This document shows positions 18,730 through 20,260 of a stretch of 64,000 nt of DNA, one piece after another (positions within the stretch are counted from its first letter, which is position 1; every line of letters begins with the position of its first letter). The position numbers and the translations under genes are program-made. The notes below the pieces were generated by a model. That model was not told where the DNA came from. It searched no databases and saw nothing but the letters and a program-made list of their open reading frames with translations. The stretch comes from Verrucomicrobiota bacterium (GTDB lineage: Bacteria; Verrucomicrobiota; Verrucomicrobiia; Limisphaerales; SIBE01), in NCBI GenBank assembly GCA_016871515.1, contig VHDE01000007.1, positions 1 through 64,000 of the forward strand, given 5' to 3'.

Positions 18730-19189
18730 CCGAGCCATTTTGACAGACCGGGGCCGCCAGGATTCCAAAAGCAGCAGGTTGCGCCGACGCCCACCGCAAA
18801 TATAGTGCTGTTGCTCAAAGAGAAGGCGGTCGCAGGGAGGTTTGTTTTGGGAACGTTTCAGAAAATTAAGACCGCCTTCCCAACAAACCGCATCAGTTGA
18901 TTCCCAAGCGGATCTTGGCCGGCCAACGGTACACCGCAGTGTGCGAAGCCAAGCCATCGGCGGCAGGGTGCGATTAAAACCTCGGGTCCGGAGCGCTGCG
19001 TTTAGGCGCGTTTACGTTGCAGAAACGCACGCAGAGTTGAAACGTTCCGAAGACTTCCGAGCCGTTGGGCAATTTCACGTTCTGCAGCGTAAACCCGTAA
19101 ACGCTGTGCTCCCGAATCGACAGATTCAATCCCACCCGCAGCAGTATTGCGGTTTTGACAGGCCGATAGCGTGCTGGCATGGTACCGCC

Positions 19190-20128
19190 ATGACGAAGTT
19201 TCTTGGGTCCCTCTTACTCGCGGCAATTGTTGTTCCAGCTTTGGCGAGCGAACCAGTGCCAGATTTTAAGCTCGTGGACGTGAACTCAAATTCCGCTCGC
19301 GGCATGAGCGAGGTTTCTCCACGCGATTACGTTCTCCAAGTTTCCGGGTATTACTTTGGCGCGGCGGGGTGAGGTTACTGCCGTGCCCAGTTTGGGTACC
19401 TCGACGCCATCCAGTCCGAACTAAGAACCGCGAACACCGATCTGAATATCGAGATTCTCGGCGTTAACCAAATCAGCGACGCGTCGGCCAATTCGCTCGC
19501 CGTAGCCGGTCGCACCATCCCCTGGCTGCAGGACACGGTGGAGCAAACGGTCTGGGTCAATTGGGAAGTCGAATATCGCGATGTCCAAATACTCGATTCC
19601 CAGAATCGCGTTTACGCCGTGTTCAATTTGACCCGTAACGATTTGGCCATAGAAAGTAATCGCGAGATTCTGAAGCAAATGTTTTTGGCCGCAGCCAAGA
19701 TTGTAGATTCGGACAAGGACCGGCTTCCGGACGACTGGGAGTTGCGCTATTTCAACAAGCTTTCGGGAAATCCGGCAGATGATCCCGACAGTGATGGCGC
19801 CGACAATTTCACAGAGTTTGCCTTTGGAACAAACCCAAACGACGCGAAATCGCGCTCATCATTTCAACCACGGCTTGTTCGGAACGGACAGCAAAGTCTC
19901 CTAACGGTTCCCTTCCGCCGTCGAGCTGGCGGAGGAATCAATTACATCGCCGAAGTCTCGGCCGATTTTAAGAATTGGACCCGCAGCTCGACCGAGATCA
20001 CAGCGGCATCAATCAAGCTTCTGTTTGATGGGACAGGAACTTCGCAAGCGACTTACTCGCTCAAGAAGCCGGCCGAGGCTCAACCCTATTCGTTCGTTCG
20101 AATCAGAGCGCTGCCGGCAGTCCAGTAA
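19190..20128 (+). CDS. candidate selenoprotein: secreted thioredoxin-like (selenoprotein P N-domain-like) protein with C-terminal Ca-binding-type Asp repeats, in-frame TGA at 19370..19372
   Basis: Frame open from ATG 19190 through TGA to 20128: signal MTKFLGSLLLAAIVVPALASE; VPDFKLVDVN; SGYYFGAAG-(TGA)-GYCRAQFGYLDAIQSEL; IEILGVNQ; RTIPWLQD; EVEYRDVQILD; DSDKDRLPDDWELRYFNKLSGNPADDPDSDGADNFTEFAFGTNP. Confidence 0.7.
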
Positions 20129-20153
20129 CACACTGTCCTATCACGTCTAGAGC

Positions 20154-20253
20154 GTTTCTCGAAACAGATTACCGAATAGGTAGGGCAAACCTGCTGCTTT
20201 GCCGGAAACGCGGCAGCGTTTCCCTACCTATTCGGTAATCTGTTTCGAGAAAC
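20154..20253. repeat. palindromic repeat, family C copy 1 (32-bp perfect inverted arms)
   Basis: GTTTCTCGAAACAGATTACCGAATAGGTAGGG ... CCCTACCTATTCGGTAATCTGTTTCGAGAAAC between convergent genes. Confidence 0.92.
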
Positions 20254-20260
20254 CCTCTAA

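Follow-up and report, generated by a model that had tools for sequence, protein, structure and literature searches.

A UGA-containing thioredoxin-fold gene of the TUGYCR redoxin family in a member of the Verrucomicrobiota very probably encodes an exported-type selenoprotein

We analysed a stretch of 64,000 nucleotides from a Verrucomicrobiota bacterium (the window, in what follows) and conclude with high confidence that it carries a genuine selenoprotein gene, in which an in-frame UGA is read as selenocysteine (Sec) and whose product belongs to the NCBIfam TUGYCR redoxin family. The product is probably a thiol/selenol oxidoreductase that is exported and acts outside the cytoplasm. A preliminary description of this DNA had proposed that the product is exported, carries Sec in the UxxC motif of a thioredoxin fold and has a calcium-binding, Asp-rich tail, and the tests that we ran support that proposal. 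It had also presented the protein as previously unannotated, which proved wrong: profile NF053656 spans exactly this domain and already names it a (seleno)protein. Hence, the family is not new. Our literature searches found no paper describing the TUGYCR family, and a 2026 review on prokaryotic selenoproteins does not mention accession NF053656 in its main text. New here are covariation in the hairpin that follows the UGA, a Cys-containing homologue paired with loss of the Sec machinery, and a sister family that forms a bridge to the SelP_N domain.

Results

A single reading frame is interrupted only by one TGA

Translation confirmed that one frame, opening with the ATG at 19190 and closing with a TAA whose last base is 20128, is broken by a single TGA and by nothing else (Table 1). 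As noted earlier, automatic ORF calling halves the gene; with Table-11 calling we reproduced the two fragments, 18842..19372 and 19538..20128. A hydrophobic N-terminus, which in the window protein is a short segment ending in ALAS, is also present in homologues in an alignment of 18 rows. The Asp-rich segment, which in the window protein reads DSDKDRLPDDW...DPDSDGADN, contains an Asp ladder that is invariant among the members of the same alignment; 6 of the 18 match TSP3_bac (PF18884; best 1.1e-6), and the window protein has no match of its own. Stretches similar to residues 217-312 end many large open frames in relatives.

Table 1. Features of the predicted selenoprotein gene, in window coordinates
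Feature	Position	Strand	Remarks
Whole selenoprotein gene	19190..20128	+	312 codons and TAA stop; TGA at codon 61, very probably read as Sec
Probable Sec-type signal peptide MTKFLGSLLLAAIVVPALAS	19190..19249	+	By inspection: basic N-end, hydrophobic core, AxA-like site
Thioredoxin-fold domain, NCBIfam NF053656 redoxin_TUGYCR	19256..19693	+	204 bits against a cut-off of 100; 198 bits in the genome search
Predicted Sec codon UGA (U61), position 1 of the motif U61-G-Y-C64	19370..19372	+	U or C in 18/18 aligned members
Cys64 codon TGC, second redox position of UxxC	19379..19381	+	Invariant in 18 members
Predicted bSECIS hairpin GUGCCCA-GUU-UGGGUAC	19383..19399	+	7 bp; loop 17 nt past UGA
Asp-rich, TSP3-type putative Ca-binding segment (DSDKDRLPDDW...DPDSDGADNFTE)	19706..19816	+	Residues 173-209
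C-terminal region of Verrucomicrobiota exoprotein type (FRRRAG..., DGTG..., FVRIRA)	19838..20125	+	Residues 217-312; family-conserved

Directly past the gene, at 20148-20259, lies a 112-bp palindrome with 56-nt arms that are 88% complementary and have no spacer. It is one of some tens of genomic copies of a dispersed repeat that resembles a MITE or REP-type element; others on this contig lie near 34352, 52073 and 65511. A search against Rfam gave no match anywhere in the window.

The gene belongs to the TUGYCR redoxin family

NF053656 ("TUGYCR motif thioredoxin fold (seleno)protein", NCBIfam release 20.0) is the sole NCBIfam profile that the window protein matches above a cut-off. The match covers residues 23-168 and the full profile (positions 1-146 of 146), including the UxxC motif and the R that follows it. 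The differences are not important: in place of T-U-G-Y-C-R the window protein has G-U-G-Y-C-R, and its domain is followed by a TSP3-type tail. We searched 293 genomes of the same order using the family cut-off of 100 bits, and identified 18 homologues, spread over six family-level groups, all of which match the profile. At the position of codon 61, 17 of these have TGA and one, from genome G409, has TGC (Cys). Each of the 17 has exactly one TGA in frame, and the eighteenth has no stop. Since TGA and, once, TGC occupy the same codon, the open frame that continues across the TGA is not due to chance. The U/C column and C64 are both invariant in the alignment, such that a check proposed at the outset, for homologues with U or C at the Sec column, came out positive in 18/18 members. 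Purifying selection acts both ahead of the TGA and past it: for the pairs compared, wherever dS could be estimated, dN/dS was 0.04-0.33 in the part preceding the TGA, in the remainder of the domain and in the tail. In a phylum-wide sample of 390 genomes we found no further member above the NF053656 cut-off; hence, within this sample, the family looks confined to the order.

Gene neighbours vary among lineages, a few repeated cases apart, and a neighbourhood that is not conserved offers no clue to the substrate. The only recurrent neighbours beyond the nearest relatives, both recognised by inspection, are a glgC-like gene (ADP-glucose pyrophosphorylase), just downstream of which the gene is often found in group f94 (L121, L124, L128), and a convergent purQ-like gene, upstream of which it lies in group f133 (L125, L126).

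A covarying SECIS hairpin follows the UGA

In all 17 Sec genes, a stem beginning 10 nt past the UGA can form, with the sequence GUGCCCA-GUU-UGGGUAC or a variant of it. A published model of the bacterial SECIS element calls for a loop of 3-9 nt, a stem of 4-16 bp, a G in the first two loop bases, a spacing of 16-37 nt and an energy of at most -7.5 kcal/mol (PMC13188914). The window hairpin, with its 3-nt loop GUU (G then U) and an energy of -8.5 kcal/mol, conforms to every one of these rules. Among the other members, the loop is 5 nt long in two, which have lost the top A-U pair; one stem contains an A-C mismatch internally, and two variants richer in A/U miss the value of -7.5 kcal/mol.

Because the stem sits within codons, we recoded every gene 5000 times with synonymous codons and used these sequences as a null. 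Over the 17 sequences, 116 of 119 pairs (97.5%) are formed, whereas the recoded sets average 73.6 and never exceed 88, a contrast that is inflated by relatedness since the null treats the sequences as independent. As a control that retains relatedness, we slid the structure along the sequences; pairing was then only 21-50%, versus 97.5% for the real structure. Three stem pairs have changed on both sides, i.e. the changes are compensatory. In the Cys homologue, 3 of 7 pairs are formed, close to its own null mean of 3.35, indicating that the hairpin has been lost. By the same rules, 72 of the 1970 TGA triplets in the window (~3.7%) come with a hairpin whose energy is -7.5 kcal/mol or lower. A hairpin by itself would therefore count for little, and the weight of the evidence lies in its conservation and covariation.

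The host genome encodes a complete Sec machinery

The host genome is a 5.73 Mb draft in 246 contigs, estimated to be 92% complete. It has a tRNA-Sec gene that scores 61.7 bits, over a cut-off of 47; ARAGORN also calls this gene tRNA-SeC and gives TCA as its anticodon. We detected selB (325 bits) and, on the same contig, selD (364 bits). The ORF adjoining selB on its upstream side carries SelA sequence; selA was identified from this sequence and its position beside selB, without a profile search. Thus, selA, selB, selC and selD are all present, as a selD-selA-selB cluster and a tRNA-Sec(UCA), which answers the check on selABCD raised in the preliminary description. With the conserved hairpin, the 17 TGA homologues and this complete machinery, the reading of the TGA as Sec is very strongly supported. 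Of the observations that the preliminary description had listed as counting against Sec (missing selABCD, homologues without Cys or Sec, a codon other than TGA), we found none.

The host selD gene itself has an in-frame TGA (L017 1531-1533, contig C146), within SCAGU, and past it a strong hairpin of 9 bp whose loop is GUG; hence, the gene studied here is apparently not the only one in which the organism uses Sec. A genome from the same family as the window genome (G001, 90% complete) also has selB and a TGA-bearing selD, with no tRNA-Sec match clearly beyond the level of tRNA-Ser and no TUGYCR gene.

The Cys homologue coincides with apparent loss of the Sec machinery

In G409, which is 96% complete, selB and selD were not found at the thresholds used, and there was no clear match to tRNA-Sec: the best score was 47.3 bits, level with the 48.3 bits that a tRNA-Ser in the window's own genome scores against the tRNA-Sec model. 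Four genomes from the family of G409 that have the TGA form (G463, G492, G512 and G530) have selB, selD and a tRNA-Sec scoring 57-67 bits. A Cys codon together with loss of the machinery is the pattern that Sec decoding would predict, and supports it; as a single event, it does not prove it.

The genomes that carry the gene are drafts. A thresholded search for selB gave no match in the TGA-form drafts G003, G456 and G507 (60-66% complete) and G532 (88%). In one genome with the TGA form of the sister family described below (G455, 93% complete), selB, selD and tRNA-Sec were all not found. In two other genomes of that family (G487 and G527), selB and tRNA-Sec are on one contig, and we propose that the G455 draft may lack both markers through one missing contig.

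Discussion

Activity of the product

The comparative data show Sec decoding; export, redox chemistry and calcium binding are predicted here from sequence. The ribosome very probably reads the UGA at 19370-19372 as Sec by means of SelB, tRNA-Sec and the SECIS hairpin at 19383-19399, and the predicted signal peptide would then direct export of the product. U61 would be the attacking selenolate and C64 the resolving thiol, and outside the cytoplasm the thioredoxin-fold domain (similar to AhpC/TSA, TlpA and SelP_N) would reduce a substrate that is in its oxidised form. Calcium may be bound by the TSP3-type tail, which would probably stabilise the protein or tether it in the envelope. By inspection, the protein differs from thioredoxins in having a YRDV segment at the position of the cis-Pro segment. 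AlphaFold2 models, built from three sequences each, had a pLDDT of 34 for the whole protein and 49 for the redox domain alone, and are too weak to confirm the fold. A search of PDB sequences gave no usable relative of the redox domain.

The same gene, with the same Sec decoding, could instead encode an exported peroxidase, in which U61 would reduce peroxides in the manner of glutathione peroxidase or peroxiredoxin and C64 would act in resolution. We regard this as possible, albeit distinctly the less probable activity. Among Pfam families, AhpC-TSA (PF00578) has matches in the largest number of members (13/18, best 1.7e-5), with Redoxin (PF08534) next, at six, as many as match TSP3_bac. This similarity to AhpC-TSA and Redoxin is a remote thioredoxin-fold resemblance over the UxxC region, and the window protein itself scores under the curated cut-off. 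The UxxC motif, moreover, is more typical of disulfide oxidoreductases, which speaks against a peroxidase.

Relationship to selenoprotein P

The preliminary description had likened the protein to selenoprotein P (SelP). Taken literally, this would mean that its domain has a common ancestor with the N-terminal domain of animal SelP, and a related extracellular redox or selenium-binding role. The link runs through a sister family in the same order (the f82 group, alignment A4), an exported-looking redoxin with U or C in a GYUSYC or WCxxC motif. Compared with the TUGYCR family, it gives an hhalign probability of 99.1 over 147 columns, with the U/C positions in register. All nine sister-family members examined match SelP_N (PF04592; best 1.4e-10, some above the curated cut-off). 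However, they match AhpC-TSA (4.2e-10) and Redoxin (1.7e-9) about as well, and SelP_N matches neither the window protein nor any of the 18 TUGYCR members. A class-wide search with SelP_N gave no match anywhere, but as its controls were equally silent, it carries no information on this point. The window protein resembles SelP in the position of UxxC, but has one TGA only and lacks the Sec-rich C-terminal region.

The two bacterial families also differ from each other: they are about 23% identical, and the sister family lacks the TSP3 segment and has another SECIS-like hairpin, CCAGAU-CGUGA-AUCUGG. GYUSYC is found in three genomes (L134, L138, L140) and WCxxC in their relatives; the Sec genes of this family carry the SECIS-like hairpin and the Cys genes do not.

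Hence, the resemblance noted at the outset stands in part: the sister family does match SelP_N, and the window protein and its own family do not. We consider that the resemblance probably reflects a real relationship within the thioredoxin superfamily, outside SelP proper. That the TUGYCR and sister families are bacterial relatives of the SelP redox domain in particular, with a similar role, seems unlikely to us.

Decoding of the UGA

The remaining alternatives concern the TGA itself, and both are rejected on the comparative data. That it is a true stop, in a decayed gene or between two separate genes, would accord with the split that standard ORF calling makes; this is very improbable given the same TGA in 17 homologues from six family-level groups, the covarying hairpin, and an open frame under purifying selection past the TGA. 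An error of sequencing or assembly, for TGC, TGT or TGG, might be suspected in a draft of 246 contigs, but 17 assemblies agree on TGA at this codon, which makes an error more improbable still.

Implications

Reading the UGA as Sec corrects the gene model at a locus where automatic ORF calling halves the gene. The SECIS element is backed by compensatory changes, and of the two forms of the gene, Sec and Cys, the latter occurs in a lineage that has apparently lost the machinery for Sec. A redox protein that contains Sec, is predicted to be exported and has a putative calcium-binding tail is thus placed on record for a phylum in which we found little written on selenoproteins. The possible link to the SelP domain is now open to a test by structure or by phylogenetic tree; were it true, these families would represent a bacterial extracellular Sec redox domain that was either the source of the SelP domain or arose in parallel with it.
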